Positions 7,139 to 25,382 of a DNA stretch of 64,000 nt are shown piece by piece; position 1 is the first letter of the stretch; each line of letters opens with the position of its first letter. Location of the stretch: positions 733,870 to 797,869 of the forward strand of contig NC_020055.1 in the NCBI RefSeq assembly GCF_000331025.1. Reading direction: 5' to 3'. The notes under the pieces are model-generated. The model saw only the letters and a program-made list of their open reading frames with translations. It was not told the DNA's origin and did not search any database. The translations under genes and the position numbers were made by a program. Source of the DNA: Maridesulfovibrio hydrothermalis AM13 = DSM 14728 (GTDB taxonomy: Bacteria; Desulfobacterota; Desulfovibrionia; Desulfovibrionales; Desulfovibrionaceae).

Positions 7139-7178
7139 CTGACACACTGCATTGTTAAAAGTGTTTCAAAACGACACA
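7139..7178 (+). promoter_or_regulatory. candidate upstream activator site of the aldehyde oxidoreductase promoter
   Basis: CTGACACACTGC (7139-7150) and CAAAACGACACA (7167-7178) are separated by 16 bases. The same two blocks, 15 bases apart, occur at 25172-25210 before the alcohol dehydrogenase. The first base of each lies 196 bases before the GG of a sigma-54 promoter. Related half-sites are AAAGTGTTTCA (7158-7168, inverted) and TGAAACACTGC (7284-7294). This suits an enhancer bound by a sigma-54 activator. Function is inferred. Confidence 0.6.
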
Positions 7179-7332
7179 TGCCAGCTCCATCCTTTTTTTA
7201 TGCGTATTTTTATATATTAAACCATCAATAATAGCATAGGTTTTAGACTCTGTAAATTTTTTTTGAAATTTATTGATCCATTGTGAAACACTGCTCAAAA
7301 AGCAACATACTGTTTTCATTGTACATTCAAAC

Positions 7333-7349
7333 TTGGAACTGTTTTTGCT
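7333..7349 (+). promoter_or_regulatory. sigma-54 (-24/-12) promoter of the aldehyde oxidoreductase locus
   Basis: TTGGAACTGTTTTTGCT matches the RpoN consensus TGGCAC-N5-TTGCW with GG at 7335-7336 and GC at 7347-7348, the required 10 bases apart. One base of the -24 box differs. It would start a transcript near 7360, leaving a leader of about 300 bases before the first gene at 7670. Confidence 0.65.
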
Positions 7350-7351
7350 TA

Positions 7352-7669
7352 AAATAATCCTCAGTAGACATTCAATTATGCCTGAGTTTGCACTTAAAGG
7401 TGCGGGTTTATTTGTACAAAAGCAAACAGGTTCCAAGACGTGCATAGGTGTGTACAGCTTGACTTATCCTGTCAGCTTGGACATATAAAAACACGACCTG
7501 CTTTTTTATTATGCGCATATGTGTGTAACTCATATAATTAAAAATTATGTCTTTTTTGATATATTATTTAATAAAAGCATACCCTGAAGGTTTTCACTTT
7601 TGACTTAAATACAACAATTTTTTTGTAAATTATGAATCCAATTTTTTTACCAAAACGGAGCCTTAACTT
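7352..7669 (+). other. long AT-rich leader of the aldehyde oxidoreductase locus
   Basis: About 310 bases without a supported gene. A possible sigma-70 promoter (TTGACT at 7459-7464 and TATAAA at 7484-7489, 19-base spacing) lies inside. The 3' half is extremely AT-rich, with T-runs at 7550-7625. The ribosome binding site for the gene at 7670 is ACGGAG. I do not recognise a known riboswitch. Confidence 0.4.
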
Positions 7670-8689
7670 ATGATGAAAACAGTTCCCGTTCAGGACTCCA
7701 TCGGCAACGTTCTCTGTCACGACATGACCCGGATTGTTCCGGGAGAATACAAAGGCCCTGCTTTTAAAAAAGGGCATATTATCACACCGGAAGATATTCC
7801 GGTGCTTCTCGAAATAGGCAAAGAACACGTTTATATTCTCACCTTAGAAAAAGGGCAGCTTCATGAAAATGATGCTGCGAGACGGATAGCAAAGGCAGCA
7901 GCAGGCCCGGGTATTACACTTTCCGACATCAGTGAAGGGCGTATCAATATGACCGCCGCTCCGGGACTGCTGTCTGTTAATGTAGAGGCACTTAACCGCA
8001 TCAACTCTATTGATGAGGTAGTCATTGCTACAATGCACAACGGCATTCAGATCACTAAGCCTCGTGATGTAGCCGGAACCCGCGTTGTTCCTCTTGTTAT
8101 TGATGAAAGCAAAATTATTCAGGTGGAGGAAATCTGCCGGGACTGTGGTCCTATCGTCAGTGTCAAGCCTTTCAGAAACCTTAAAGTAGGCATCATCACT
8201 ACCGGCAGTGAAGTATACACAGGTCGCATCAAAGATAAATTCGGTCCTGTTATCCGCAACAAACTTTCGCAGCTTAATTCTGAAGTCATCGGCCAGACAT
8301 TAGTCAGCGATGATCCTCAGATGACCTGCAAAGCAATCCTTCAAAGTATTGATGACGGCGCAGAAATGGTGGTGGTTACCGGAGGAATGAGCGTTGACCC
8401 CGACGACCAAACCCCGGCAAGCATTCGGGCAACCGGTGCTGAAGTCATAACCTACGGTTCCCCCACCTTTCCCGGCGTTATGTTTATGCTGGCCTATTTG
8501 AACGGCGTACCCATTGTGGGTCTGCCAGGTTGTGTCATGTATTACAGGGCCAGCATCTTTGATCTTATCGTTCCGCGGATTGTAGCGGGCGAACGTCCCA
8601 CCCGCAAAGATATCGCTGAATTGGGCCACGGCGGTTTCTGCGCCGGATGCGACACCTGCCGCTATCCGCTTTGTTCTTTCGGTAAATAG
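7670..8689 (+). CDS. MoeA/CinA-like molybdopterin-binding protein with Cys-rich tail
   Basis: A 339-residue cytoplasmic protein. The C-terminal half has the molybdopterin-binding fold found in MoeA, MogA and CinA (GIITTGSEVYTGRIKD near 170-185, then VVVTGGMSVDPDDQTP and GLPGCVMYY). The N-terminal part resembles the MoeA linker region (PVQDSIGNVLCHDMTRIVPGEYKGPAFKKGH). The tail carries C324, C327, C330 and C335 in CAGCDTCRYPLC, which may bind a metal. Directly upstream of the aldehyde oxidoreductase, it probably serves molybdenum insertion or cofactor hand-over to that enzyme; this is inference. It is too short and diverged to be the housekeeping MoeA. Confidence 0.82.
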   Translation: MMKTVPVQDSIGNVLCHDMTRIVPGEYKGPAFKKGHIITPEDIPVLLEIGKEHVYILTLEKGQLHENDAARRIAKAAAGPGITLSDISEGRINMTAAPGLLSVNVEALNRINSIDEVVIATMHNGIQITKPRDVAGTRVVPLVIDESKIIQVEEICRDCGPIVSVKPFRNLKVGIITTGSEVYTGRIKDKFGPVIRNKLSQLNSEVIGQTLVSDDPQMTCKAILQSIDDGAEMVVVTGGMSVDPDDQTPASIRATGAEVITYGSPTFPGVMFMLAYLNGVPIVGLPGCVMYYRASIFDLIVPRIVAGERPTRKDIAELGHGGFCAGCDTCRYPLCSFGK

Positions 8690-8760
8690 AGGACAGTTCG
8701 ACGCCTGTTTCAGGCGGTTGCTTAGAATAAAAAACAGCAGTAATTCAGGAGGTTCTTTCC

Positions 8761-11478
8761 ATGATCAAACGGACTCTAAAAGTTAACGGCGTAGAAAAAT
8801 TCATTCTCGCCGAGCAAGACGATTCACTCGCCAATGTTCTCCGCGAAAAACTCGGTCTGACAAGTGTTAAGATCGGTTGCGGAACCGGACAGTGCGGTAG
8901 TTGTTCTATTATCATTGACGGCAAGCTCAAACGCTCCTGCACAATCAAAATGAAACGTGTTGAAGACCACACTGAAATTATCACCACCGAAGGCATCGGT
9001 ACACCGAACCAGATGCATCCTATCCAGATTGCATGGATGGCTCACGGCGGCGCACAGTGCGGTTTTTGTACTCCCGGTTTTATTGTTTCCTCTTATGCCC
9101 TGATTCTTGCTAATCCAAAACCCACACGTGAAGACGTGCGTGACTGGTTCCAGAAGCATCGTAACGCATGTCGCTGCACCGGTTACAAACAGCTTGTTGA
9201 TGCTGTTCAAGATGCAGCTGCGGTAATGCGCGGAGACATGAGCGAAGAAGAACTGCTTTTCAAGATGCCCGAAGACAACCGCATCTGGGGTTCAAAATAC
9301 CCCCGCCCGACAGCTGCGGCCAAAGTTACCGGTACTCTCGACTACGGTGCAGACCTCGGCCTCAAAATGCCTGAAGGAACTCTTAAATGCGCCCTTGTAC
9401 AGGCAGAGATCTCCCATGCAAATGTCATTTCCATTGACACAAGCGAAGCTGAAAAAATGGAAGGCGTTGAAAAAGTTGTTACCTACAAAGACATCAAAGG
9501 TAAGAACCGCATTACCGGCCTGATCACTTTCCCCACCAACAAAGGCGACGGCTGGGATCGTCCTATCCTTGCTGACGAAAAAATCTTCCAGTTCGGTGAT
9601 GCGATTGCCATTGTTTGTGCAGACACAGAAAAGCACGCAAAGGCTGCAGCTGCCAAGGTTAAAGTAGAACTGGAACAGCTGCCTGAGTACATGAATGCTC
9701 CTGCCGCTATGGAAGAAGATGCCATGGAAATCCACCCCGGAACTCCTAACGTCTACTTTGAGCAGAAAATTGCCAAAGGCGATGAAACCGCTCCTATCTT
9801 TGATAAGGCAGATGTAGTTCTCGAAGGCGACTACTATGTAGGACGTCAGCCGCATATGCCCATCGAACCAGATGTAGGTTTCGCCTACCTTGATGATGAT
9901 GGTAAACTCTGCATTCACTCCAAGTCCATCGGCCTGCACCTCCATGCAGCTATGATTGCTCCCGGACTCGGTGTTGATATTGAAAACCTCATCATGGTAC
10001 AGAACTACGCAGGTGGTACTTTCGGTTATAAATTCTCCCCCACCATGGAAGCTCTGGTCGGCGCAGCATGTCTCGCTACCGGAAAACCTGTATTCCTGAA
10101 CTACACATGGTTCCAGCAGCAGACATACACAGGTAAACGCTCCCCATTCTTCACCAACATTCGTGTTGCTGCAAATAAGGACGGTAAACTCCTCGGACTC
10201 GAAACAGAGTGGATCTGCGACCACGGTCCTTATTCCGAGTTTGGCGATCTGCTGACCCTGCGCGGTGCTCAGTTCATCGGTGCTGGTTACAACATGCCCG
10301 CTATCCGCGGTCTTGGTAAAACCGTCTGCACCAACCATGCATGGGGTTCTGCTTTCCGTGGATACGGTGCTCCTGAAACAGAGTTCGGTTACGAAGTAAT
10401 CATGGACGAACTTGCTGAAAAACTCGGCATGGACCCCTTTGATCTCCGTGAAAAAAATATCTACCGTGACGGCGACACTACACCGACAGGCTGCAAGCCC
10501 GAAGTGTACTGCATTGAAGACATCTTCAAAAAAGCCCGTCCTAAATATGAAGAAGTCAAAAAATGGGCTTCTGAAAACAATACTGACGAAGTTAAACGCG
10601 GCGTAGGTATCGCTCTTGGTGTATACGGTTCCGGTCTTGACGGACCAGACTCCGCTGAGTCTGAAATCGAGCTTAATGCTGACGGATCTGTAACCATGTA
10701 CGCCTGCTGGCATGATCATGGTCAGGGTGCTGACATGGGTGTCCTCGGAACAGCTCATGAAGCTCTGCGTCCCTTAGGCCTAGCTCCTGAGCAGATTCAC
10801 CTCGTAATGAACGATACCCGCACCTGCCCCAACGGCGGACCTGCCGGTGGTAGCCGTTCACAGGTTGTTGTCGGTAACTCCATCATCGCTGCTTGTCGCG
10901 AACTCATGGACTCCATGCGTAAAGCTGACAACTCCTTCCGCAGCTACGATGAAATGATCAAAGAAAACAAAGCTGTACGCTACAGCGGAAAATGGTCTGC
11001 TCCGGCCACAGAGTGTGATGAAAACGGACAGGGCAGCCCCTTTGCATGTTACATGTATGGTCTGTTCATCACCGGTGTCAGCGTTGAAATCGCAACCGGT
11101 AAAACTCAGGTTGAAAAATTCGTACTCGTTGCCGATATCGGTAAAATCAACAACAAGCTCGTTGTTGACGGCCAGATGTACGGTGGTCTTGCTCAGGGTA
11201 TCGGACTGGCCCTCACCGAGGATTACGAAGATATCAAAAAACATTCCACCATGGTCGGCGCAGGATTCCCTTACATCAAGCAGATCCCCGACGATATGGA
11301 ACTGATCTACGTTGAAACAGCCCGCCCTGAAGGATCACACGGTGCTTCCGGTGTTGGCGAACTGCCTCTGACCACACCTCATGCTGCGGTCATCAACGCA
11401 ATCTATAATGCTTGCGGCGCACGCGTAACCCATCTCCCGGCTCGCCCTGAGAAGGTTCTTGCTGCTCTTAAAGGCTAA
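8761..11478 (+). CDS. mop: molybdenum aldehyde oxidoreductase (Mop type)
   Basis: A 905-residue xanthine-oxidase-family enzyme that oxidises aldehydes to carboxylic acids with water, using molybdopterin cytosine dinucleotide and two [2Fe-2S] clusters. Cluster cysteines are C40, C45, C48, C60 and C100, C103, C137, C139, the same numbers as in the structurally known D. gigas protein. The catalytic base is E867 in GVGELPLTTPHA. The protein lacks the FAD domain of xanthine oxidases, as expected for Mop; electrons likely go to flavodoxin or ferredoxin. Strong ribosome binding site (AGGAGG) and codon use richer in C/T-ending highly expressed codons than neighbours suggest high expression. A perfect 20-base terminator follows. 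Confidence 0.97.
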   Translation: MIKRTLKVNGVEKFILAEQDDSLANVLREKLGLTSVKIGCGTGQCGSCSIIIDGKLKRSCTIKMKRVEDHTEIITTEGIGTPNQMHPIQIAWMAHGGAQCGFCTPGFIVSSYALILANPKPTREDVRDWFQKHRNACRCTGYKQLVDAVQDAAAVMRGDMSEEELLFKMPEDNRIWGSKYPRPTAAAKVTGTLDYGADLGLKMPEGTLKCALVQAEISHANVISIDTSEAEKMEGVEKVVTYKDIKGKNRITGLITFPTNKGDGWDRPILADEKIFQFGDAIAIVCADTEKHAKAAAAKVKVELEQLPEYMNAPAAMEEDAMEIHPGTPNVYFEQKIAKGDETAPIFDKADVVLEGDYYVGRQPHMPIEPDVGFAYLDDDGKLCIHSKSIGLHLHAAMIAPGLGVDIENLIMVQNYAGGTFGYKFSPTMEALVGAACLATGKPVFLNYTWFQQQTYTGKRSPFFTNIRVAANKDGKLLGLETEWICDHGPYSEFGDLLTLRGAQFIGAGYNMPAIRGLGKTVCTNHAWGSAFRGYGAPETEFGYEVIMDELAEKLGMDPFDLREKNIYRDGDTTPTGCKPEVYCIEDIFKKARPKYEEVKKWASENNTDEVKRGVGIALGVYGSGLDGPDSAESEIELNADGSVTMYACWHDHGQGADMGVLGTAHEALRPLGLAPEQIHLVMNDTRTCPNGGPAGGSRSQVVVGNSIIAACRELMDSMRKADNSFRSYDEMIKENKAVRYSGKWSAPATECDENGQGSPFACYMYGLFITGVSVEIATGKTQVEKFVLVADIGKINNKLVVDGQMYGGLAQGIGLALTEDYEDIKKHSTMVGAGFPYIKQIPDDMELIYVETARPEGSHGASGVGELPLTTPHAAVINAIYNACGARVTHLPARPEKVLAALKG

Positions 11479-11485: not shown

Positions 11486-11536
11486 CATTGAACTTAACCG
11501 GACACGCTGTGTCCGGTTAAGTTCAATGCCTTTTTT
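11486..11536 (+). terminator. terminator after aldehyde oxidoreductase
   Basis: A perfect inverted repeat starting CATTGAACTTAACCGGACAC with a 2-base loop, followed by CCTTTTTTG. It separates the oxidoreductase transcript from the accessory operon starting at 12012. Confidence 0.93.
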
Positions 11537-12011
11537 GCCTCCGGTAAACCAGCCCGGGGCCTTAAACTCTTTTTGAGAAAGGGTTGAAAAATCCCAGAAA
11601 CTTTTATTAAGCTTTGCTGTGACTCTGTTAAAATTGACCGTAAGCAAAGCCTGTATTTATACAAAAATTAGATGCAACCCGTTTTATATCTATGGGGCCG
11701 CACTTAATTAAAAAAAGCATCCTGATTACTTTTAGTTGGATTAGTGCTTGTTGGCATGGAATAACGTCTGGCTTGTCTAAAGATATACCTACAGACCGCT
11801 ATTCCTTATTACGTCTCCTGCCGACAAGCACTACCCTATTAAAAGTTTTTGCTGTAAAAAGTATCAAAATTCCCGTTTGCCCCCTCACGCAAGAGAGCGC
11901 AAACCCGTTAAAAAGTTTGGAAGGGAGAGTCCAGAAAGTAAAACTTCCCCTGAAAGTTTTACACCTCTTATCCCCCTAATGGCTCCCAGAGGGACGCCGG
12001 AGGCATCACCT
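11537..12011. repeat. gene-free stretch bounded by inverted remnants of an intergenic repeat
   Basis: The left end (GCCTCCGG at 11538) and the right end (CCGGAGGC at about 11997-12004) are inverted copies of a GC-rich box, each with an inner AAACTTTT/AAAAGTTT box nearby. Such GCC-TCC-GG-rich segments with fillers like AGAAAGGGTTGAAAAA are common between genes in Desulfovibrio genomes. An ORF at 11692-11979 and the extension of the next gene upstream of 12012 translate this repeat and lack ribosome binding sites. The inside holds a long hairpin (11743-11832). Confidence 0.5.
11743..11832. ncRNA. strong 90-base hairpin, possible structured RNA
   Basis: AGTGCTTGTTGGCA (11743-11756) pairs with TGCCGACAAGCACT (11819-11832). 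Continuing inward, GGAATAACG-TCTG pairs with CAGACCGCTATTCC, leaving an asymmetric bulge of about 13 bases on the 3' side. This gives roughly 25 pairs in 90 bases. No T-run follows, so it is not a standard terminator. It may be an RNA element in the leader of the accessory operon or a relic of a mobile element. Confidence 0.35.
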
Positions 12012-14285
12012 ATGGATCAAAAAGATCTTCGTAAATGGGAAGCTCGCTGTACGCAGGAAGAACCTGCCAGATGTAAGGCCATGTGCCCGCTTCATGTGGA
12101 CGGGCGCGAACTTTGTAAACTGATAGCTGCCGGACAGATTGATAAAGCATGGGCTGTACTGTGTAAAACCATGCCTTTTCCAGCTGTTACGGCCCGCGTT
12201 TGCGACGGCGACTGTCAAGAAGCCTGTCTAAGGAGCAAGATCGGCGGTGGTATTGAGCTGGCAGGTCTGGAACGGTTCTGTGCCGAAAATGCCAAGCGCA
12301 CCCCCCCCATGCGGGCTTTACCTGCACGGGGTAAAAATATCGCGGTTATCGGAGCATATCTGCCGGGCCTAGCGGCCGCGTGGGATCTCGGTAAAAAGGG
12401 CTTCACAGTCAAAGTTCTCTGCGAAAGCAGGTTTGAGGGATTTGACGGACTTCCGGCTGGACGGGTTGAAAAAGAAACTTTTGAAAAAGAACTTTCCCAG
12501 CTTGGCAAGATGAATGTTTCATTTATTGAAAAACGTTCACCGGCCCGGGAGATTGTATACGAAGCTCTGGAAGATTTCGATGCGGTTTTTGCTGATCCGG
12601 TAGCCTGTGACGCAGCAAAGCTGCACATTTCCGATCCTGATGCCACTACGCTGAAAACAACAAAAGAAGGTCTGTTTGCTTCTGTTGCGCCGGATGACTG
12701 CTCGGTCATTTCCCTGATTGCGCTGGGCAGAAAAGGAGCACTGTCCATTGAACGCACCATGCAGGGTGCTGCCCTTTCCGCCGGACGAGATCGCGAAGAT
12801 CCTTTTGAAAGCAGACTTTTCACAAATATCAGCAAAGTGGAACCAGTCAGTATAGTTGCATTACCTGAAGCGGGCTATTCAGTGGAACAGGCCCGCGAAG
12901 AAGCCAAACGCTGCCTGCTTTGTGAATGTATGGAATGCGTCCACAACTGTGCTTACCTTGAAGAATTTAAGAGCTACCCCAAGGCTTATGCCCGCCAGAT
13001 TTATAACAATGCATCTATTGTCATGGGCACACGACGGGCGAATAATTTAATTAATTCCTGTATGCTCTGCGGCCTGTGTGAAGATATCTGTCCAGAAAAT
13101 TTCTCTATGAAAGAACTTTGTATAGATGCGAGACGTGATCTGGTTGAAAAAGGAAATATGCCACCTTCGGCCCATGAATTCGCATTACGGGATATGGAGT
13201 TTGCCGACAGCTCAACCTGTTCGCTGGTTAAACATGAACAGGGGACAGATGAAAGCAGACAGATTTTCTTCCCCGGTTGTCAATTAACAGCATCTGATCC
13301 CTCTGCTGTAGAAAAAACATATTCATATTTATGCTCTGCCCTTGAAGGCGGAACAGGTATGATTCTACGCTGTTGCGGTGCTCCTGCGGACTGGTCCGGA
13401 CAGGTCGATGTGTTCGGCAGAAAGACAGAGTCGCTTGAACGGGATTGGAATTCGTTAGGCCGCCCGCAAATTATTGCAGCCTGCCCGTCATGCATTGAAA
13501 GCCTGCGCAAAGGACTGCCTGAAGCGGATATAGTCTCTCTCTGGTCGGTGATATCTAGTGATCGTGACAACTTTAATATTGATATGAAGCTGAAAGAGTT
13601 ATCGCTTCAAGATCCATGCTCAGCACGGCACAACTATGAACTTATGACTGATGTGCGGTTGCTGCTGAATGATATGAATGTAGATTTTAATGAGCCGGAA
13701 CTTTCCGGTTCACGCACAGAATGCTGCGGATTCGGCGGGCTGCTATCTGATGCCAATGAGCCGTTGTCCAGAAAAGTTGCAGAAAGCAGAGCTGAAAAGC
13801 TTACCGGAGACGGCATTACTTATTGTGCCATGTGTCGCGATTTACTTGCTAAAACAGGAAAACGCTGCATGCATATGCTGGATATTCTCTTTCCTTCTGA
13901 AAGTGATGACCCTGCCGCACGCCCGGCTCCCGGCTACTCTGAACGCCGTGAAAACCGGGTTCGTTTAAAAGAAAATCTTCTAAACAATCTCTGGTGTGAG
14001 CCTTCGCATCCCCGCCCTGATTATGAATCCATTGCTGTAAACTTTACTGATGAAGCGCGGGAAATGATGGAAAAACGACGCATTCTACTCTCAGATATAC
14101 AAAAAACCCTCCAGTTTGCACAGGAATCAGAGCGTGATCTTGAGAATGTGGAGACTGGACACAGACTTGTGCATTTTCGCCCGGTCACCGTTACCTACTG
14201 GGTGGAATTTGAGAAAAAAGATGGCGATAAATACCTTGTCCACAGGGTCTGGAGTCACCGTATGCAGATATTAGGAGTTGTTTAA
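12012..14285 (+). CDS. dicluster-binding GltD-like / HdrD-like iron-sulfur redox protein
   Basis: A 757-residue multidomain cytoplasmic protein. Residues 1-100 resemble the GltD-type iron-sulfur N-domain (CKAMCPLHVDGRELC, RVCDGDCQEAC). A short nucleotide-binding-like fold follows, but its glycine motif is degenerate (GAYLPG at 114-119). Next come ferredoxin-type motifs (CLLCECMECVHNC and CMLCGLCEDICP) and two CCG-type domains (CCGAPADWSG and CCGFGGLLSD), as in heterodisulfide reductase HdrB/D. It probably passes electrons in or out of the oxidoreductase pathway. I start at the ATG at 12012 with GGAGG eight bases before it; the longer reading from a TTG translates repeat DNA. It overlaps the next gene by one base. 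Confidence 0.8.
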   Translation: MDQKDLRKWEARCTQEEPARCKAMCPLHVDGRELCKLIAAGQIDKAWAVLCKTMPFPAVTARVCDGDCQEACLRSKIGGGIELAGLERFCAENAKRTPPMRALPARGKNIAVIGAYLPGLAAAWDLGKKGFTVKVLCESRFEGFDGLPAGRVEKETFEKELSQLGKMNVSFIEKRSPAREIVYEALEDFDAVFADPVACDAAKLHISDPDATTLKTTKEGLFASVAPDDCSVISLIALGRKGALSIERTMQGAALSAGRDREDPFESRLFTNISKVEPVSIVALPEAGYSVEQAREEAKRCLLCECMECVHNCAYLEEFKSYPKAYARQIYNNASIVMGTRRANNLINSCMLCGLCEDICPENFSMKELCIDARRDLVEKGNMPPSAHEFALRDMEFADSSTCSLVKHEQGTDESRQIFFPGCQLTASDPSAVEKTYSYLCSALEGGTGMILRCCGAPADWSGQVDVFGRKTESLERDWNSLGRPQIIAACPSCIESLRKGLPEADIVSLWSVISSDRDNFNIDMKLKELSLQDPCSARHNYELMTDVRLLLNDMNVDFNEPELSGSRTECCGFGGLLSDANEPLSRKVAESRAEKLTGDGITYCAMCRDLLAKTGKRCMHMLDILFPSESDDPAARPAPGYSERRENRVRLKENLLNNLWCEPSHPRPDYESIAVNFTDEAREMMEKRRILLSDIQKTLQFAQESERDLENVETGHRLVHFRPVTVTYWVEFEKKDGDKYLVHRVWSHRMQILGVV

Positions 14286-14500
14286 TGAGTACATTAAAAG
14301 TTCTTGATGAAGACTTTTCCTCTTGGAAGTGCTCGGCCTGCGGCAAAGCTCTCAGCCCGAAACCTGTGGAGCTGGAATATCTGGGCAGCAGATTTAATGT
14401 GGAGCTTCCCGCCTGTCCCGAATGCGGACTTATTCTTATTCCTGAAGAACTGGCACTTGGCAAAATGGCTGAGGTTGAAAGACTTCTGGAGGACAAATAG
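14285..14500 (+). CDS. small CxxC redox/zinc-ribbon protein
   Basis: A 71-residue protein with two CxxC pairs (C16/C19 in WKCSACGKAL and C44/C47 in PACPECGLIL), the arrangement of a zinc ribbon or rubredoxin-like metal knuckle. It lies between the dicluster protein (one-base overlap) and a methyltransferase (one-base overlap, TAGTG), so it is made as part of the same operon. I recall it as the DVU_1557-type redox protein of Desulfovibrio; that match was not checked by search. Its job is probably a redox or metal-holding step linked to the aldehyde oxidoreductase. Confidence 0.75.
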   Translation: MSTLKVLDEDFSSWKCSACGKALSPKPVELEYLGSRFNVELPACPECGLILIPEELALGKMAEVERLLEDK

Positions 14501-15168: not shown

Positions 15169-15259
15169 CCGATATTATTTCAAGCTGCCGGAAACAAAAG
15201 TATTCTTTTAAAAAAACACGGAACGCATTAATATTCCCTTCAAATCTGGAGAATTATAA

Positions 15260-17066: not shown

Positions 17067-18372
17067 CCGTCCACTGGGAAGCTGGCTCAATCTACGCATG
17101 GGCCGTGATCCTGATATGGAAACCGTATCGGCAGAAGAGCTGCAAAACTGGCAGTTCGAACTGCTGCGCAAAACCATGTTCAACGCAGTGCAATCCTGCC
17201 CCTTTTATCGTGACCGGTTAGCCGGAATTCAAATCGGGGCAGTGCATACCCCGGCAAACTTGGAAAAGATTCCTTTTACAACTGCGGAAGATCTGCGAAA
17301 CGGACCGGAAAGTTTCTTATGCGTATCTCAGGACGAAATTGCGCGGGCAGTGACTCTTGCCAGCTCAGGATCAAGCGGCCCCCCGAAACGCTTGTTTTTT
17401 ACAGCCGGTGACCTCGAACGGACCATTGAGTTTTTCCATTACGGCATGGCTCCCATGCTCAATAAGGGCGAAACCATTCTAGCAATCCTGCCCGACTCGC
17501 GCCCGGGAGGAGTCGGATCTATTTTTGCTGAAAGTAATTCAAGACTGGGGGCCGAAACAGTCCTTCCAGTCAATCCTTCTGACATCACCACCCTGCTGCA
17601 CCTTCTCCTCGACTCACATTCCAGCTGCATTCTCGGACCGGCCATTCAAATTCATGCCCTAGCACGGCTCATGGAAAACAAAAAAATTGTTATTAACCAT
17701 GTCCGCTCGGTTCTGCTCTGCTGGGATGTTTTGCCCAAAGCTTCCATGCGGACAATCTCACGCATATTTGATTGTGATATTTTCTCCCACTGGGGCATGA
17801 CCGAAACCTGCCTCGGCGGTGCTGTGGACTGTTCCCCGGACTCGGGAATGCATCTGCGTGAACCTGATTTTTTTATCGAAATTATTGACCCCGTGACCGG
17901 AAAACAGGTTCCTGACGGGGTTAAAGGTGAAATAGTGATCAGCACTCTTTCAAGGCGAGCCATGCCGCTTATCCGTTACCGCACTGGAGACGTCGGCTGT
18001 ATTTGTGATGATGACTGCTCTTGCGGCCTTCCCCTGCGCAGACTTAAAGCTGTTGAGGGAAGGCTCGACGACGGCTTAACCCTGCCGGACGGCGGCAGGC
18101 TGACCCTTAACGATCTTAACGACATCATTCTTCCCCATTCTGACGTGCTTGATTTCAGCGTGGAATATACACCTGAAAAACAGGAGCTTTCCATCGGACT
18201 GGACCTAGTTCCGGAAAGCCGTCCGGATTCCGCTGTTTATGATTCCCTCATGTCTTATTCAAAAATAAAAAAGGCTGTTCAAAATCATAATTTGAAAATA
18301 ACAACCAGACTTGCTAACAAAGACGGGAAAATTAACTCCGGCTTTGGAAAACGTTCCATAATTTATAAATAA
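17059..18372 (+). CDS. AMP-dependent ligase, phenylacetate-CoA-ligase-like
   Basis: A 437-residue adenylate-forming enzyme. The phosphate-binding loop is LASSGSSGPPKRLFFT, the A5-type motif is SHWGMTETCLGGAVDC, and the late motif is LIRYRTGDVGCI followed by Cys-rich CDDDCSCGLPLRRL, as in phenylacetate-CoA-ligase-like proteins. It should activate a carboxylic acid with ATP. Sitting in an aldehyde oxidoreductase operon, it might activate the acid product or an acid group on a cofactor precursor; neither is shown. Start at 17059, with CAGGAG before it and overlapping the radical SAM stop codon. Recalled as the DVU_1553 family. Confidence 0.83.
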   Translation: MTDRPLGSWLNLRMGRDPDMETVSAEELQNWQFELLRKTMFNAVQSCPFYRDRLAGIQIGAVHTPANLEKIPFTTAEDLRNGPESFLCVSQDEIARAVTLASSGSSGPPKRLFFTAGDLERTIEFFHYGMAPMLNKGETILAILPDSRPGGVGSIFAESNSRLGAETVLPVNPSDITTLLHLLLDSHSSCILGPAIQIHALARLMENKKIVINHVRSVLLCWDVLPKASMRTISRIFDCDIFSHWGMTETCLGGAVDCSPDSGMHLREPDFFIEIIDPVTGKQVPDGVKGEIVISTLSRRAMPLIRYRTGDVGCICDDDCSCGLPLRRLKAVEGRLDDGLTLPDGGRLTLNDLNDIILPHSDVLDFSVEYTPEKQELSIGLDLVPESRPDSAVYDSLMSYSKIKKAVQNHNLKITTRLANKDGKINSGFGKRSIIYK

Positions 18373-18389
18373 AAAGAGATTCGTTTTTC

Positions 18390-19427
18390 ATGAAAAAACT
18401 TATTCATAATATCTGCACTCAACTTGAATCCGGCAACAGCCTGATCATGGCTTCCATTATAAAAAGCTCCGGCTCCACACCACGCTCATCAGGCAGCAAG
18501 ATGGTGGTCATGCGCGACGGCTCCATTGACGGAACCATCGGCGGAGGACTTGTTGAAGCTCTGGTGCAAAAGGAAGCGGCTAAACTTTTCGAAGCTGGAC
18601 AAAATATTGTTTCCTTCACGGACTTTGACCTTTCCAACGAACTGGCCGCCAATGCTGATATGATTTGCGGCGGGCATGTGTCTGTAATGCTGGAACATTT
18701 ACCGGCTGATAAAGAGACCATCGCTGCATTCTCTCAGCTTGATTCCGCCTTGCGCAAAGGCAGGCAGACAGTCCTTATCACTCATATAAATGCCGCAACA
18801 GTAAAAGAAAGAATCGTGATACATCAGGGTTGCCAACTTCCTAAGTTCAAATTCATGGATGAAAACAAAGGGGCGGACCTTCTCGAATCTTCTCTAAAAT
18901 CAGGCCGTCCGGTTATAGAGAAAAACGGAGACAGATATATTGTTGCCGAAAGCTTCACCCCGCAGCCGGATTTATTCATATTCGGAGCAGGACACGTTTC
19001 CCGTCCGACCGCAGAACTTGCTTCATCCGTCAATTTCAGGACGATCGTACTTGATGACCGCAGCGAATTTGCCAATGAAGAACGCTTCCCACTGGCGGAC
19101 GAAATACATGTTTTACCTGATTTTGATGATTGCTTCGGCGGACTTGAAGTAAATGAGAATTCATACATAATAATAGTAACTCGCGGACATCTCCATGACA
19201 AAACCGTGTTGGGGCAGGCTTTGCAGACCCCCGCCCGTTATGTCGGAATGATCGGAAGTTCTAAAAAACGTAATGCTATATATGATGCCCTGCTAAGTGA
19301 AGGGACAACGCAATTTAATATCGACCGCTGTCACTGCCCTATAGGGCTGAGCATAGGAGCACAAACTCCTGAAGAAATTGCGGTATCCATTGTTGCAGAA
19401 CTGATTCAAAAACGAGCCGGAATTTAA
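18390..19427 (+). CDS. xdhC: XdhC/CoxF-type molybdoenzyme maturation protein
   Basis: A 345-residue member of the XdhC/CoxI family. The N-terminal XdhC domain has IIKSSGSTPRSSGSKMVV and DGTIGGGLVEALVQ, and the C-terminal Rossmann domain has IFGAGHVSRPTAELA and YVGMIGSSKKR. The family binds the molybdenum cofactor, protects it, and supports its sulfuration before insertion into xanthine-oxidase-family enzymes. That is the expected function here for the aldehyde oxidoreductase at 8761. It stands between the ligase and the MocA-like transferase, with 1-17 base gaps. Confidence 0.92.
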   Translation: MKKLIHNICTQLESGNSLIMASIIKSSGSTPRSSGSKMVVMRDGSIDGTIGGGLVEALVQKEAAKLFEAGQNIVSFTDFDLSNELAANADMICGGHVSVMLEHLPADKETIAAFSQLDSALRKGRQTVLITHINAATVKERIVIHQGCQLPKFKFMDENKGADLLESSLKSGRPVIEKNGDRYIVAESFTPQPDLFIFGAGHVSRPTAELASSVNFRTIVLDDRSEFANEERFPLADEIHVLPDFDDCFGGLEVNENSYIIIVTRGHLHDKTVLGQALQTPARYVGMIGSSKKRNAIYDALLSEGTTQFNIDRCHCPIGLSIGAQTPEEIAVSIVAELIQKRAGI

Positions 19428-19428
19428 T

Positions 19429-20565
19429 ATGAAATTTTACGGACTGATTCTAGCGGCAGGACTCTCATCACGTATGGGAAGGCTGAAAGCCTTGCTTCCT
19501 CTTGAGGGCAGCACGATCCTTTCCCGCTGTATCCGTTCGCTGGTTGATGGCGGGGCTTCAGATATCTTTGTAGTAACCGGACATGAAGCCGGCAAAGTCG
19601 GTTCCGAAGCCCGTGTGCTGGGGATGCATGAAATTTTTAATCCAGACTACAGCGAAGGCATGTTTTCATCAGTACGGGCAGGAGTTGAAATGCTGCCTGA
19701 TGACACTGATGCATTTCTGGTCCTTCCGGTTGACATTCCACTGGTGCGCCCCTCAACAATCAGGGCGTTGACTTTTGACTATTCAGCTAAGCCAACTGAT
19801 GTAATTTACCCCTGCTTCAAGGGAGAGCGGGGACATCCGCCGCTGATCAGCGCAGATCTGATTCCAGAGATTTTAGGTCATGACGGTGAGGGAGGACTCC
19901 GTGCTATCCTTGAAAGATACGATCTTACCGCCCGTGAGCATGACATGCCTGACCTTGGAATCCTGCGTGATCTGGACACCCCCGAAGATTACGATATGGC
20001 TTGCAAAATTTCTCGCCGCCGCATCCCCCTGCCGGAAGAATGTGAAGCACTCTGGGAACTGGCGGAAACCCCGCAACAGACCAGAGAACACTGCAAAACC
20101 GTTGCAAAGGCTGCCTGCCTCATGGCAAAAGCCTTAAATAAGGCACGCAACCACAAAAAATCGCTGGATTTAAACATTGTTCGCAGCGCAGCCCTGATGC
20201 ACGATGTTGCCAAACGCAGACGCAATCATGAAGCAGCCGGAGCAGCCATCCTTGCCGGATACGGATTTTCCGGCATTGTAGACATTGTTGCCGCTCATCG
20301 CGACACTGATATCAAACCTGATTCACCGCTGACTGAACAGGAAATTGTTTTTCTGGCCGACAAAATGTTTCAGGGAACGCAGCTGGTCAGCCTGAGTGAC
20401 AGGTATGGTAAAACCCTGCAAAGATGGAGCGGTGACCTTGAAGCCGTCAATGCCATCACAGGACGTCTGCAACGTGCTGAAGCCCTGCTTAAACGCTATG
20501 AAAAGGAGACCGGAGTGCGCATGCCGGACTTTCTGCTAAGCAACATGGATAAGGATGAATCATGA
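19429..20565 (+). CDS. MocA-like cytidylyltransferase fused to an HD domain
   Basis: A 378-residue fusion. Residues 1-190 are a MobA/MocA nucleotidyltransferase: LILAAGLSSRMGRLKALLP (nucleotide-binding loop and Lys) and LVLPVDIPLVRPSTI (metal-binding Asp). The product most likely adds CMP to molybdopterin to make the cytosine dinucleotide cofactor used by the oxidoreductase. Residues 200-378 are an HD phosphohydrolase-like domain with the core LMHDVAKRRRNHE around residue 258 and AAHRDTD. Fusion to HD is uncommon for MocA, and its phosphohydrolase substrate is unknown. Recalled as the DVU_1551 family. It overlaps the next gene by four bases. Confidence 0.85.
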   Translation: MKFYGLILAAGLSSRMGRLKALLPLEGSTILSRCIRSLVDGGASDIFVVTGHEAGKVGSEARVLGMHEIFNPDYSEGMFSSVRAGVEMLPDDTDAFLVLPVDIPLVRPSTIRALTFDYSAKPTDVIYPCFKGERGHPPLISADLIPEILGHDGEGGLRAILERYDLTAREHDMPDLGILRDLDTPEDYDMACKISRRRIPLPEECEALWELAETPQQTREHCKTVAKAACLMAKALNKARNHKKSLDLNIVRSAALMHDVAKRRRNHEAAGAAILAGYGFSGIVDIVAAHRDTDIKPDSPLTEQEIVFLADKMFQGTQLVSLSDRYGKTLQRWSGDLEAVNAITGRLQRAEALLKRYEKETGVRMPDFLLSNMDKDES

Positions 20566-21197
20566 TTGTTCTGGTCCGGCACGGTGAAGCCGAAAACGCC
20601 GGAGGAAGAGCCATCGGACAGACCGATCTCCCCCTTTCAGCAGCAGGTGAAAGACAGGCCCGCACGCTGGCAGATTCGCTCTGCTGCATAGACTATAAGT
20701 CATTTTATGCCAGCCCCCTTACCCGTACCATGCAAACCGCATCTTATATTGATCAGAAGTGCGCTATTCCCCCTATCCCCTGCCCTGAATTGCAGGAAAT
20801 AAACCTAGGCAAATGGGACGGACTGAGCTTTAAAAAAATCAAGAAAGATTTCCCTGAACAATACCGGATGCGCGGAAAGGATATTGCCGGATTCAGGCCC
20901 CCCGGCGGCGAAAATTTTCTGGATCTGAAAGATCGGGTCTCTGAAGCTATAAATCGCATTTCATCAGAGGATACGCCTGCTGTGATTGTAACCCACGCCG
21001 GAGTAATCAGAATCGTGATGCACCTTATACTGAATTTTCCACTTGAAAATATTTTTAAAATCAAACCCACCCACTGCTATGCCTCCATTGTTTCAAAAAC
21101 ATCCCACGGCTTGACGCTAAAAGCATTCAATATCCCGCCCGGAACTGCACTCAGCAACATGCTGCGGCAGGAGGTGCCGCAACCGGATCAGTTCTGA
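20562..21197 (+). CDS. histidine phosphatase family protein
   Basis: A 211-residue member of the phosphoglycerate-mutase-like histidine phosphatase superfamily. The phosphohistidine motif LVRHGEAEN is at residues 4-12, and the second catalytic His is in VTHAGVIRIVMH. The length and RHG context resemble alpha-ribazole phosphatase (CobC) but also small generic phosphatases. Its place at the end of the molybdenum-cofactor operon suggests removal of a phosphate from a cofactor intermediate or product. The four-base ATGA overlap with the MocA-HD gene shows coupling. The substrate is unknown. Confidence 0.82.
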   Translation: MIVLVRHGEAENAGGRAIGQTDLPLSAAGERQARTLADSLCCIDYKSFYASPLTRTMQTASYIDQKCAIPPIPCPELQEINLGKWDGLSFKKIKKDFPEQYRMRGKDIAGFRPPGGENFLDLKDRVSEAINRISSEDTPAVIVTHAGVIRIVMHLILNFPLENIFKIKPTHCYASIVSKTSHGLTLKAFNIPPGTALSNMLRQEVPQPDQF

Positions 21198-21286
21198 CCA
21201 CCTTGACATCTTGGTTCTTGAAGCGGACAATAAAATATATTATTATATAAAGTTAGACATAATTCAAAAAAAGATACGGGGAAATA

Positions 21287-22429
21287 ATGCAGGTAACCAA
21301 ATTCGCCATTCCGGAAATTATCTTCGGCAACGGCAGTATCAAATTTCTAGCTTCCTGTGCCCGAAGACTTGGAGCCAAAAGAGTTCTGCTGGTCAGTGAT
21401 AAAGGAATCGAAAAGGCAGGCTGGGTCCAGCTTGTACTGAATATTCTCGAAAGCGAAAACCTTGATTGCGCATATTTTGATGAGCTTACCGCCAATCCGC
21501 GCGACTGTCAGATTCAGCAGGGAGCAAAAATCTACCGCGAGCATAAGGCTGATGTTATCATCGGACTCGGAGGCGGCAGTCCCATTGATGCTTCAAAAGG
21601 CATCGCCATAATTGTCAGCAACGGCGGCAAGATACATGACTACGAAGGGGCAAACCGTATCCGCCATCCCCTGCCCCCCATGATTTTCATTCCCACCACC
21701 GCAGGAAGCGGGTCAGACGTATCACAATACGCAATTATCACCGACAAAGTAAGACAAGTAAAAATGGCCATCATCAGCCGTTCGCTGGTGCCGAATATAT
21801 CTATCATTGATCCTGACCTGCTGATCACCAAATCCAGACAGCTCATCCTTGCTTCGGCTGTGGATGCTCTGGCCCATGCAATCGAATCATACGTATCGCA
21901 ACTGGCTTCCCCGTTTACAGAAACTCAAGCCCTGACCGCCATCAAACTCATTGCGGGGAATATTAAAAAGGCGGCAGATCATAAGGATCCGGAAGCATTA
22001 AAGAACCTCTCTATCGCCAGTACGGCGGCGGGAATGTCCTTCAGCAACGCGGGCCTCGGCGTTGGTCATGCACTGGCTCATTCTCTGGGCGGACGTTATG
22101 ACGTAACCCACGGTATGACACTGCCTATTTTGCTGCCTTCGGTAATGCGTTTCAACCTGCCAAGCTGTGAAGAAAAGATGGCAACCATTGCCCGCACGAT
22201 CAATGAAAACAGCCCGACTCCTAATAATGCGCCAAAAGAACACATAAGTGACACCCTGCAACATATGTTTGAAAGCATGGAAATCCCCATGCAACTTCGT
22301 AAAATTGTTCCCGACAATACCAAGCTGGAAGAAATATGCCGCCTTGCCGTACAGGATGCCTGCGCCGTAACCAACCCAAGAGAAGCCACATGGCAGGATC
22401 TCTATAAAATATGTAAAGAGGCTTGGTAA
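21287..22429 (+). CDS. iron-containing alcohol dehydrogenase
   Basis: A 380-residue group III (iron-dependent) alcohol dehydrogenase. The nucleotide-binding loop is GLGGGSPID (93-101), and the metal ligands are D193, H197, H261 and H275, matching the spacing in known enzymes. It interconverts an alcohol and an aldehyde with NAD(P). The stop codon overlaps the start of the sensor kinase gene (TAATG), so enzyme and kinase are cotranscribed. It differs from the enzyme at 25456 (380 versus 393 residues and low identity), so the two probably have different substrates or roles. Confidence 0.9.
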   Translation: MQVTKFAIPEIIFGNGSIKFLASCARRLGAKRVLLVSDKGIEKAGWVQLVLNILESENLDCAYFDELTANPRDCQIQQGAKIYREHKADVIIGLGGGSPIDASKGIAIIVSNGGKIHDYEGANRIRHPLPPMIFIPTTAGSGSDVSQYAIITDKVRQVKMAIISRSLVPNISIIDPDLLITKSRQLILASAVDALAHAIESYVSQLASPFTETQALTAIKLIAGNIKKAADHKDPEALKNLSIASTAAGMSFSNAGLGVGHALAHSLGGRYDVTHGMTLPILLPSVMRFNLPSCEEKMATIARTINENSPTPNNAPKEHISDTLQHMFESMEIPMQLRKIVPDNTKLEEICRLAVQDACAVTNPREATWQDLYKICKEAW

Positions 22430-23613
22430 TGAGTAATAAGGCCAGACTTCACGATCTTATCGGTATTGAACACCATAAGCTTAATTTCTTTCAGGAACTG
22501 CAACAGAACATCGCAGAACTGAAAGACATCAACCGTGAGTCAGAAGATCAGCGTTGCGAAATTGCTGCCATTCTGGACGGAATTACTGATGTAATGATGG
22601 TGCTTTCCGAAAACATGGAAATAATTTCGGTCAATCATGTTTTTGAAAGACTCTTTCCGGGCATCAATCCCATCGGCAAGAAATGTTATTCCCTGTTCAG
22701 GGATATAGATCATCCTTGCCCGGAATGCCCTGCGTTCAAATCTCTTTCCACAAATTCTGTATGTAAAAATACCGCTATTTTTCGTATTGAAGGCAAAAAT
22801 ATGCAGTTTGACATGGTAGCCTCACCCCTTAAAAACCCCGAAGTACCTGATCACCGCATCCTTATTTTTAAACGGGATGTAACCATGGAAAAAGAATATC
22901 AGGCAAAATTTTATCAGGCTGAAAAAATGGCAACCATCGGAGTGCTTGCAGCCGGAGTTGCTCATGAAATCAACAACCCGATGGCGGCGGTGGCCGGCTT
23001 TGCTGAGGGCATTCAACGCAGACTGACCAGACTGGAAGAATCCATCCCTGAAGATCTGGCCGAAGACCTCTATGATTACACCAACACGATTTTAAAAGAA
23101 TGCCTTCGCTGTCAGGACATTGTGAAGACACTGCTATCTTTCAGCCGGCCGGTTGCCTCGGAATTTATCCCTGTAAACTTGAATCAGGTTGCTGAAGACA
23201 CTCTGCGCCTGCTCGACCATCAATTCCGCCGCTACCAGTCCATCAGGCTGAACATGAATCTGGCTTCACCTCTGGGACATATTTACGGAAACGAAGCCCA
23301 GCTGAAACAGGTTGTGCTCAACCTGCTGACAAATGCGGTGGATGCAGTAGAAGAAGATGGTGAAATCAGCGTAGAGACCTTTGTAGAGAACAACCATATA
23401 GGACTTAGAGTCAGCGATTCAGGCTGCGGCATTGCGCCGGAAATCAAGGATATGCTTTTCGAACCGTTTTTCACGACTAAAAATGTGGGAAAAGGAATCG
23501 GAATCGGCCTTTCCACCTGCTTTAATATTGTAAGAGAACACAACGGCGAAATCATCGTGGACAGCGAAGTGGGCAAAGGCTCCACTTTCACTGTGCTTTT
23601 CCCCGTTCAGTGA
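22429..23613 (+). CDS. PAS-containing sensor histidine kinase
   Basis: A 394-residue cytoplasmic kinase with no clear membrane segment. It has a coiled N-terminus (about 10-45), a PAS domain (about 45-150) that contains CYSLF and PCPECP cysteines, then HisKA with the phospho-His in AHEINNPMAAV (near 180) and HATPase with NAVDAVEEDG, DSGCGI, FFTTKNVGKGIGIGLS. It forms a two-component pair with the response regulator that follows. A soluble sensor with a Cys-bearing PAS may read redox state or a small metabolite such as an alcohol or aldehyde. The ATG at 22429 is preferred over the in-frame TTG at 22423. Confidence 0.9.
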   Translation: MSNKARLHDLIGIEHHKLNFFQELQQNIAELKDINRESEDQRCEIAAILDGITDVMMVLSENMEIISVNHVFERLFPGINPIGKKCYSLFRDIDHPCPECPAFKSLSTNSVCKNTAIFRIEGKNMQFDMVASPLKNPEVPDHRILIFKRDVTMEKEYQAKFYQAEKMATIGVLAAGVAHEINNPMAAVAGFAEGIQRRLTRLEESIPEDLAEDLYDYTNTILKECLRCQDIVKTLLSFSRPVASEFIPVNLNQVAEDTLRLLDHQFRRYQSIRLNMNLASPLGHIYGNEAQLKQVVLNLLTNAVDAVEEDGEISVETFVENNHIGLRVSDSGCGIAPEIKDMLFEPFFTTKNVGKGIGIGLSTCFNIVREHNGEIIVDSEVGKGSTFTVLFPVQ

Positions 23614-23621
23614 GAAAATAT

Positions 23622-24965
23622 ATGTCTGAATCATACAAAGTTCTAGTTGTGGACGATGAAGAGTCCATCCTCAAGCTGCTCAGTAAAGAACTGTCAAGCC
23701 CCGAACGCATGGTCCATACGGCCAACTGCGCGAAAACCGCGCGCGAACAGGTGCGCAAAGAGCGTTACGAAGTAATCATCTCCGACATCAGACTCCCTGA
23801 CGGTGACGGGCTTGAATTACTTACCGAGTTCAAAGATATGGAGCCGGATGTGGAAGTAATCCTCATCACCGGACACGGCAATATTGATAATGCGGTCGAA
23901 GCCATCCGTATCGGAGCTTATGACTACATAACCAAACCTTTCAGGCTGGACCGTGTAGAACTGGTGGTGGACCGTGCATGGCAGCGAGTCTGCCTGACCC
24001 GTGAGAACCGCAGTTACAAACATTCTCAGCAGAGCGACACCTCAAGCTCACAGCTTATCGGCAGCTCGGCTCCCATCAAACAGATCAAACACCTTATCAC
24101 TAAAGTTGCCCCGACCAATGTTCCGGTACTTATCACCGGAGAATCCGGAGCGGGTAAAGATGTTGTAGCCCACTCTATCCACTGCGCAAGCCAGCGGGCC
24201 GGTAAACCCATGATAGTCAAGAACTGCGCCACCCTGCAGAAGGAACTTTCACGCAGTGAACTTTTCGGCCACACTAAAGGATCGTTTACCGGAGCCATGG
24301 AAAATTGCGACGGCCTGATGACCTTCGCCCATACCGGAACTCTTTTCCTTGATGAGATCGGCGAACTGCCTATGGAAGTGCAGGCCTCCCTGCTGCGCGT
24401 GCTGGAAGCACATACCTTCCGCCGGGTGGGTGAAAAAGATGAACGTACGGTTGATATCCGCTTCCTGTTTGCCACCAACCGCAACCTTGCGCTGGAAGTT
24501 GAGGAAGGGCGTTTTCATGAAGCTCTTTTCCACCGCATCAATGTCTTCAACATCAGCCTGCCTGAACTGAAAGACCGTCGCGAAGACGTGCCTCTGCTGA
24601 TTGATTTTTTTCTGAACAAACTTGGACAGCAGATGGGGCAGGGTGAATACTCCATCAGTGAACGGGCCATGCAATGCATGCTTTCCTACCACTGGCCCGG
24701 CAATGTTCGTGAGCTGCGCAACGTGCTTGAACGCAGTATTATTCTATCTGACAACTTCGTTATCACCTGCAACTGCCTGCCCAAGGAAATAGCCGATCAG
24801 CCGGAACGGGACGGGGAAACCGGAATTCTTTCTCTGGAACGCATGGAGCGGGAGCACATCATTAAAGCTCTGGACTTTTTCAACGGCAACCGCCAGAGGG
24901 CTGCGCAAGCCTTAGGTATCGGACGCAAGACGCTTTACCGGAAGATCGACAAATATAATTTGTAA
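23622..24965 (+). CDS. sigma-54-dependent response regulator (NtrC family)
   Basis: A 447-residue NtrC-type activator: receiver domain (phospho-Asp D55, Lys K105), AAA+ domain with Walker A GESGAGKD (173-180), sigma-54 contact loop GSFTGA (220-225) and Walker B LFLDE (241-245), and a Fis-type helix-turn-helix at the C-terminus (RAAQALGIGRKTLYRKI). It is partner of the kinase at 22429. It is the only sigma-54 activator in the window and lies between two sigma-54 promoters with the same upstream motif (7139 and 25172), so it is the best candidate to switch on both the aldehyde oxidoreductase and the alcohol dehydrogenase. ATG at 23622; an in-frame GTG at 23610 is possible. Confidence 0.92.
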   Translation: MSESYKVLVVDDEESILKLLSKELSSPERMVHTANCAKTAREQVRKERYEVIISDIRLPDGDGLELLTEFKDMEPDVEVILITGHGNIDNAVEAIRIGAYDYITKPFRLDRVELVVDRAWQRVCLTRENRSYKHSQQSDTSSSQLIGSSAPIKQIKHLITKVAPTNVPVLITGESGAGKDVVAHSIHCASQRAGKPMIVKNCATLQKELSRSELFGHTKGSFTGAMENCDGLMTFAHTGTLFLDEIGELPMEVQASLLRVLEAHTFRRVGEKDERTVDIRFLFATNRNLALEVEEGRFHEALFHRINVFNISLPELKDRREDVPLLIDFFLNKLGQQMGQGEYSISERAMQCMLSYHWPGNVRELRNVLERSIILSDNFVITCNCLPKEIADQPERDGETGILSLERMEREHIIKALDFFNGNRQRAAQALGIGRKTLYRKIDKYNL

Positions 24966-25097
24966 CGGTGGTAATTATAAATGATCACTAATAAAAAAAC
25001 TGCAAAATCACCTGCTGAAAGCCGGCAAAAACAATGCTTGCCAAAGTAAAAAAATAAAATACATAAACATAGTATCTTACCTGACAGTCAAGACGGT

Positions 25098-25136
25098 AAA
25101 TCCCCGCTTAAATACATTTAAGCGGGGATTTTTATT
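25098..25136 (+). terminator. terminator after the response regulator
   Basis: AAATCCCCGCTTAAA (25098-25112) and TTTAAGCGGGGATTT (25117-25131) pair perfectly and are followed by T-rich sequence. It lies about 130 bases after the regulator stop codon. Confidence 0.88.
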
Positions 25137-25171
25137 TACTTTATATATGCTCAGAAAAGCACAAGAGCCAT

Positions 25172-25210
25172 CTGACACACTGCCCTGTATCGCTGGTGCA
25201 AAACGACACA
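25172..25210 (+). promoter_or_regulatory. candidate upstream activator site of the alcohol dehydrogenase promoter
   Basis: CTGACACACTGC (25172-25183) and CAAAACGACACA (25199-25210) are identical to the two blocks at 7139-7178. Their distance from the sigma-54 promoter (25172 to the GG at 25368) is 196 bases, the same as at 7139. The surrounding bases are not conserved, so this is not a simple duplicated segment. Confidence 0.62.
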
Positions 25211-25365
25211 CACCCCTGTTATGTCATATAACAGAACACTTTACCCAGTGCTGTTGTGCAGGAAGCGTTGAAAACCACTTGCAAAAATGAGTACCTCCTT
25301 TAGAAAGTGATGCAATTCGCCCACCCCAGCATTCACTAAACACCTAATATAACAGACTTTTACAA

Positions 25366-25382
25366 TTGGCACGTGTTTTGCT
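25366..25382 (+). promoter_or_regulatory. sigma-54 (-24/-12) promoter of the alcohol dehydrogenase gene
   Basis: TTGGCACGTGTTTTGCT is a near-perfect RpoN promoter: GG at 25368-25369, GC at 25380-25381, 10 bases between. It is about 75 bases before the start codon at 25456. Confidence 0.88.

Follow-up and report, generated by a model that had tools for sequence, protein, structure and literature searches.

Predicted paired operators connect aldehyde oxidoreductase and alcohol dehydrogenase promoters with a sigma-54-type response regulator in Maridesulfovibrio and related sulfate reducers

In the present study, we analyzed a 64,000-nucleotide stretch of the Maridesulfovibrio hydrothermalis AM13 genome (NC_020055.1, positions 733,870 to 797,869; hereafter the window), which encodes a molybdopterin aldehyde oxidoreductase (AOR), an iron-containing alcohol dehydrogenase (Fe-ADH) named Adh1, and, between them, a two-component pair with a sigma-54 activator. 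We found that paired operator sites precede a sigma-54 promoter of both enzymes at almost the same spacing, and that this arrangement accompanies the regulator gene across related genomes. On this evidence, the regulator encoded at 23610-24965 very probably uses the paired operators to switch on the moeA-like/AOR operon and adh1 together.

Paired Blocks Before Two Sigma-54 Promoters

A sequence-only reading of this DNA had reported two short blocks recurring before both genes. As described there, CTGACACACTGC was found at 7139 and 25172 and CAAAACGACACA at 7167 and 25199, with no other copy on either strand of the window, and the GG of a -24 element followed at 7335 (TTGGAACTGTTTTTGC) and 25368 (TTGGCACGTGTTTTGC), in each case 196 bases past the first block. 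The geometry had been called identical; this held for the first block, and the second block stood 168 bases before the GG at one locus and 169 at the other, which is 1 bp off. The operator-to-promoter DNA of the two loci was unalike (global alignment score of -10.5 versus -7.8 ± 4.9 for shuffles), indicating, in line with the earlier reading, that the two loci did not arise as a copied segment.

The two-block pattern gave two matches in the window and none in each of 100 shuffles. Across the whole 3.7-Mb genome it again gave two matches, both at these loci, and none for the reversed control, and a relaxed form (TGACMCA-N23..27-YGACMCA) returned just these two. Repeated single 12-mers were not rare, with 309 different 12-mers occurring more than once on the + strand of the window; the rarity lay in the pair in register. 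A motif that was common and randomly placed had been named beforehand as the outcome that would count against a shared control region, and neither this genome nor the related genomes described below gave that outcome.

Operator and Promoter Structure

From the DNA before Adh1 in 32 loci and further genomes, we derived a general operator, in which the inverted repeat TGKGTC-N5-GACMCA occurs twice, 31-32 bp apart. Paired sites three helical turns apart are the NtrC style of enhancer. Compared with this pattern, the blocks are the right halves (GACACA) of two predicted NtrC-like operators; in the window's genus, site 1 has a degenerate left half, so that two GACACA-bearing blocks remain visible.

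All features given here and below lie on the + strand of the window. Before the AOR operon, site 1 (7141..7146) consists of the right half GACACA within the block 7139-7150, 194 bases before the GG and with a degenerate left half, and site 2 (7162..7178) is a near-complete inverted repeat, TGTTTC-AAAAC-GACACA, 32 bases past site 1. Before Adh1, the GACACA of site 1 (25174..25179, within the block 25172-25183) likewise stands 194 bases before the GG, and site 2 (25194..25210) reads TGGTGC-AAAAC-GACACA, 31 bases past site 1. The sigma-54 promoters of the moeA-like/AOR operon (7334..7348, TGGAACTGTTTTTGC) and of the alcohol dehydrogenase (ADH) gene (25367..25381, TGGCACGTGTTTTGC) both have GG and GC at a 12-base offset; the ADH promoter carries the full consensus TGGCAC-N5-TTGC, and the AOR promoter has TGGAAC. 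The nearer operator site starts 162-163 bases before the GG. In Desulfovibrio vulgaris, among those sigma-54 promoters whose site is known, "the biggest fraction" is reported to lie less than 100 bases from it (Kazakov 2015, PMC4641369).

The AOR had been named as the gene behind the first promoter. It is indeed a target candidate, as the second gene of the operon (8761..11478; Mop type, best hits 1dgj and 1sij, NF045668 at 1669 bits against a cut-off of 1100); the gene at 7670 itself encodes a MoeA-like molybdopterin-binding protein (7670..8689, PF00994) and comes first past the promoter. The second target, Adh1 (25456..26637), is DVU2405-like by position. The two-component pair was found between the targets as reported, with its open reading frame (ORF) bounds amended to 22423..23613 for a PAS histidine kinase and 23610..24965 for the regulator.

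Co-occurrence of the Operator and the Regulator

To follow the operator beyond this genome, we used a family set of 288 genomes, 17 of the window's genus and 271 others (G, L, and g labels denote genomes, loci, and genera of this analysis). The strict pattern was present in 16 of the 17 genus genomes and in 1 of the 271 others, with 29 matches in total, and the reversed control was present in 1 of 288. The sole strict match outside the genus (G247) lies directly behind a regulator orthologue and before an ADH gene. The seventeenth genus genome (G002) has a more diverged regulator (62% identical); a diverged operator pair, with a score of 17, stands at an equal distance (196/165) in its ADH promoter. 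When 32 loci (1.28 Mb, both strands counted) were scored, 24 of the 27 operator-promoter pairs at 50-400 bases fell at ADH or AOR promoters; the remaining three comprised a reverse reading of a site (L045), another register of a genuine site (L058), and an intragenic pair (L069).

AOR was present in 186 of the 288 genomes (E<=1e-250) and the regulator in 85 (E<=1e-130). For AOR, we hand-picked 33 regulator-bearing and 27 regulator-free genomes from these results and examined as much as about 4 kb of upstream sequence for one gene in each, also where a genome has several; the stretches were shorter where contigs ended (774 bases for the regulator-free L179). At threshold 17, an operator with a sigma-54 promoter at 170-215 bases was found in 12/33 regulator-bearing and 0/27 regulator-free genomes (Fisher p 2.7e-4, without kinship correction). 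In two of the twelve (L138 and L139, from the genus members G007 and G012), AOR and regulator are on different contigs; ten belong to other genera. Within the genus, a sigma-54 promoter preceded AOR at all 14 loci, and 13 of these promoters had the general operator; the remaining one (G014) matches the strict pattern.

A comparable result was obtained for ADH. All 52 ADH genes of regulator-bearing genomes had a sigma-54 promoter, and the general operator was present at 15 of 17 promoters in the genus (the two exceptions, G014 and G009, carry the strict pattern) and at 26 of 35 in other genera. These counts omit a second copy at L121:6040, which has no sigma-54 promoter, and loci without Adh1 in the stretch (for example L062, L068, L107, L116, and L130), and neither ADH nor AOR counts are corrected for kinship. 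Among 28 regulator-free genomes, 19 lacked Adh1 at E<=1e-150, and in the other nine the operator with a sigma-54 promoter was found at 0 of 19 Adh1-like genes. These results supported the earlier proposal that the activator acts through the motif on both genes, with binding itself being a prediction.

A related-locus search returned five loci, two of them close (92% and 88%), and plasmid searches with the regulator and the second Fe-ADH returned only relatives below 60% identity.

Promoter Distance and a Third Conserved Element

The distance from the first GACACA to the GG was 190-196 bases in the genus (28 entries, two of which are the same loci fetched twice). In other genera it clustered at 180-185 (8 entries), 191-198 (22), and 205-206 (2); two values of 85 and one of 283 fell outside the clusters. 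These steps approximate one helical turn, which suggests that the enhancer may have to face the promoter. In a Rayleigh test from which the outliers 85, 85, and 283 had been dropped beforehand, R was 0.56 at 10.5 bp (n=32, related sequences, no phylogeny correction), and periods of 11 and 11.5 bp fitted slightly better. Helical phasing of the operator-promoter distance is therefore only suggestive.

We also observed a third element, approximately YAACnnnYTGwAAT, about 32 bases before the GG in both ADH and AOR promoters (72 promoters, being 80 minus near-duplicates). In the window it lies at 7303..7317 before AOR and at 25336..25350 before ADH. The mean left-out score was 5.5, against -7.8 at other offsets. 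Scores above 3 were reached by 53 of 72 regulon promoters and by 2 of 42 other strong sigma-54-like sites in the studied loci. A general sigma-54 feature was considered and rejected. The genome has eight TGGCAC-N5-TTGC sites (six for the control pattern), of which five were read for the element, and it was present at none of the four non-ADH sites, some of which may not be real promoters. A binding site for IHF was also considered as the cause of the fixed spacing, using the IHF consensus, which the third element resembles only loosely; the mean best score was 7.1 against 6.9 (sd 0.8) in shuffles, not clearly above chance. Separately, two near-identical sigma-54-like promoters (TTGGCACGCCAGTTGCTAT; L201 and L202, C2 ~2016855 and ~2017139) stand in tandem 284 bases apart elsewhere in this genome and do not carry the third element.

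Identity of the Regulator

The regulator consists of a receiver domain, a sigma-54 AAA+ domain, and a Fis-type helix-turn-helix (HTH), as in the DVU2394 orthologue group. GSFTGA replaces GAFTGA in the window regulator, and some orthologues have GAFTGA or GAYTGA. DVU2394 has GSFTGA, and so does DVU3220, so the variant is not exclusive (Table 1 of Kazakov 2015, PMC4641369). Orthologues were separated from paralogues by score, with at least 492 bits for the former and at most 357 for the next relatives, and the family-wide search, with its own cut-off, included matches scoring as low as 482 bits. Two or three regulator copies are present in some genomes. Among genomes of g51 (such as G286 and G292), most listed members have two or three, possibly subfunctionalised, and G291 has one; in G012, a regulator match (C2:379755-381101) was flagged with one internal TAA stop.

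The order second Fe-ADH, kinase, regulator was found in 32 of 32 loci around the regulator (L039-L070, one per genome), and in the window the three are overlapping ORFs. In all five g36 loci (L206-L210), Adh1, a stretch of 9-10 kb, the second Fe-ADH, the kinase, and a regulator 60-65% identical to the window's follow one another on one strand, and all five have the operator before Adh1, at 205-206 bases. The stretch, checked in L206 only, encodes CCG, multi-Fer4, FlpD-like, and NAD-binding proteins and is Hdr/Flx-like; in the window, the triad adjoins Adh1 with no Hdr/Flx genes between. In the D. vulgaris literature, DVU2396 is Adh2 and DVU2405 is Adh1, and the g36 order matches DVU2405 to DVU2394. 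The window regulator is a probable DVU2394 orthologue.

In D. vulgaris Hildenborough, DVU2394 reportedly controls the adh operon DVU2405-2397 and has a validated site, a direct repeat; its motif was reported beyond Hildenborough only in D. vulgaris Miyazaki, with D. salexigens among the screened genomes (Rajeev 2011, PMC3333781). In the literature searched, supplements being outside its scope, AOR was not reported as a target. The adh target is thus already known; what appears new, within this literature, is the AOR target together with the general phased operator.

A Candidate Sensor Beside the Kinase

The second Fe-ADH (21287..22429) is DVU2396-like by position, and its ORF overlaps that of the kinase. 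Its best NCBIfam match was ErcA (NF041833) at 425 bits, below the cut-off of 550, so it was not classed as ErcA; Adh1 scored 405 bits. In an alignment of 32 sequences it keeps the Asp and His positions expected for metal binding. A true ErcA (624 bits) is encoded elsewhere in the genome (L232:4046-6866, C2 ~3172545-3175365, minus strand), and its ORF also overlaps a PAS histidine kinase ORF. In the window kinase (22423..23613), six cysteines (C88, C99, C102, C227, C230, and C366) were kept in every one of 51 orthologue sequences, which may point to a metal or redox site. By eye, this kinase has no obvious membrane segment.

The constant place of the second Fe-ADH ahead of these two genes (32 of 32 loci) suggests an enzyme-coupled sensor. 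Mutations in each of DVU2394, DVU2395, and DVU2396 have been reported from evolved D. vulgaris lines (PMC7439460), and loss-of-function mutations of DVU2394 from syntrophic lines. These observations support, and do not prove, that the three proteins form one pathway. We tentatively propose, as a possibility that we rate as less likely than not, that the second Fe-ADH is a sensor and not an energy enzyme. It would report alcohol or aldehyde turnover, or redox state, to the kinase and thereby to the regulator, which would act on Adh1 and AOR via stereospecific, helix-phased loops.

Ethanol is no more than a candidate signal. For Solidesulfovibrio fructosivorans, it has been reported that ethanol does not induce adh when conditions are respiratory, and separate regulators were proposed for adh and aor, that Aor being an aldehyde ferredoxin oxidoreductase and thus a different enzyme (PMC10084766). 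In published RNA-seq of D. hydrothermalis, the Fe-ADH DESAMv2_20447 (yiaY) was reported as down at 10 versus 0.1 MPa (PMC4162548); it may or may not be one of the two Fe-ADH genes in the window.

Other Features of the Window

Past AOR, a perfect hairpin of 20 pairs followed by a T-rich run (11486..11528, consensus scan) is a probable terminator, so that the far-downstream regulator is probably in a separate transcript. The hairpin contains GGACACGCTGTGTCC, a GACAC/GTGTC inverted repeat with operator-like halves in the opposite order, and is probably a terminator all the same. An accessory cluster (11877..21197) encodes a dicluster FeS protein, a methyltransferase, a C_GCAxxG protein, radical SAM and AMP-binding proteins, and a histidine phosphatase family protein, together with two AOR maturation functions, an XdhC-type factor and a MocA-like NTP transferase. 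Its first product (11877-14285), an 802-aa pyridine nucleotide-disulfide/dicluster FeS protein (NF045663), adjoins AOR and is a possible electron partner. A sigma-70-like promoter match (21203..21231, consensus match alone) precedes the sensor triad, and a terminator-like hairpin (25098..25131, consensus scan) follows the regulator.

Discussion

Regulator binding, looping, phosphorylation, and joint induction are steps that we infer from the arrangement of sites and genes. A dimeric Fis-type HTH of the regulator would recognise each full site, TGKGTC-N5-GACMCA, and the two sites, lying 31-32 bp (three turns) apart, would be on the same helix face. The PAS kinase would phosphorylate the regulator, leading to its assembly on the site pair; the DNA would then loop over about 160-195 bp, allowing the AAA+ ring to open the sigma-54 polymerase waiting at -24/-12. 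With an equal arrangement before moeA-like/AOR and adh1, alcohol-to-aldehyde and aldehyde-to-acid oxidation would be switched on together.

Several observations weigh against this proposal. The operator was missing at threshold 17 from 9 of 35 other-genus ADH promoters and from 21 of 33 AOR stretches of regulator-bearing genomes, so the AOR link is not universal. The scoring matrices were hand-made, scoring at AOR and ADH was restricted to 170-215 bases, and genus members have only a degenerate left half at site 1. A looser threshold of 16 gave 13/33 versus 1/27 for AOR, the regulator-free match being L186; both score-16 calls, L186 and the regulator-bearing L168, drop out at 17. Wider windows returned the same distance clusters together with outliers at 85 (L108 and L109), 283 (L146), 136, 160, and 169, and the pairs counted at 184 or 192 bases in L108, L109, and L146 are not the best-scoring ones there. 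From the DVU2394 literature, the motif was reported in only a subset of the DAP-chip hits, and the stress genes DVU3298-3305 were reported as further targets (PMC3333781). The main text of that paper mentions neither aldehyde, oxidoreductase, nor DVU1559, and the main text of Kazakov (PMC4641369) mentions neither aldehyde nor DVU1559.

Other explanations were weighed against the same evidence. The repeat might be bound by a different protein, either another sigma-54 activator or a global regulator, with the neighbouring regulator serving other targets. The genome does contain 29 scored matches to the regulator, and the reported stress-gene targets of DVU2394 (PMC3333781) fit such a division of labour. 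However, in the regulator-free genomes that were examined, ADH and AOR promoters showed no such sites, the lone strict match beyond the genus also follows a regulator orthologue, and control of the adh operon by DVU2394 has been reported (PMC3333781), all of which make this explanation improbable. A slightly less probable one still is that the repeat serves adh1 only and that the AOR site is a relic of gene clusters joined in the genus. The g36 stretches read, with their D. vulgaris-like order, had no AOR gene around the regulator, and many AOR stretches (21/33) lack the site; yet 14 of 14 AOR promoters in the genus (13 by the general operator and the last by the strict pattern) retain both the site and its spacing, and the site persists where AOR is on another contig than the regulator (G007 and G012) and in ten AOR loci of other genera. 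As for a duplicated promoter segment or mere chance, the 309 repeated 12-mers show that short repeats do arise in this window, but the intervening DNA is unalike, the pair appeared in 0 of 100 shuffles, and orthologous sites are conserved across species; the comparison refutes this explanation, and we give it almost no weight. Control of both operons by the regulator through the paired operators remains our preferred explanation.

If correct, these results would define a concrete, widely conserved regulon for alcohol and aldehyde metabolism in sulfate reducers, in which a known regulator gains a second enzyme target and a two-strain motif is replaced by a general paired operator. They would also provide a natural promoter set in which the enhancer-promoter distance seems to shift by whole helical turns, and they indicate that the sensor is likely to be an enzyme-kinase pair.

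The proposed operator resembles the NtrC enhancer at glnA, where two inverted-repeat sites three turns apart lie upstream of a sigma-54 promoter. It differs in its half-site sequence and in a longer promoter distance, which is near-constant across species and between the two unrelated target genes. A close likeness is to the DVU2394 system, with its sigma-54-type regulator bearing GSFTGA, its Fe-ADH/kinase/regulator neighbourhood, and its adh1 target. The DVU2394 site is reported as a direct repeat, a likeness to the window operator by description. Whereas the validated DVU2394 motif was reported from two strains, the paired operator occurs here in many genera of the order and has AOR as a probable second target. 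The sensor proposal resembles ErcA/ErcS (YiaY/PP_2683) of Pseudomonas, in which an Fe-ADH is co-cistronic with a kinase controlling alcohol oxidation genes and the pair acts upstream of those genes (PMC7427536, PMC12997753). In contrast to that system, the window kinase shows no receiver domain and is not a hybrid, and the regulator is a sigma-54 activator and not of the LuxR type. If the second Fe-ADH does act as a sensor, ErcA-ErcS would have an anaerobic, sigma-54 counterpart in this Fe-ADH/kinase pair.

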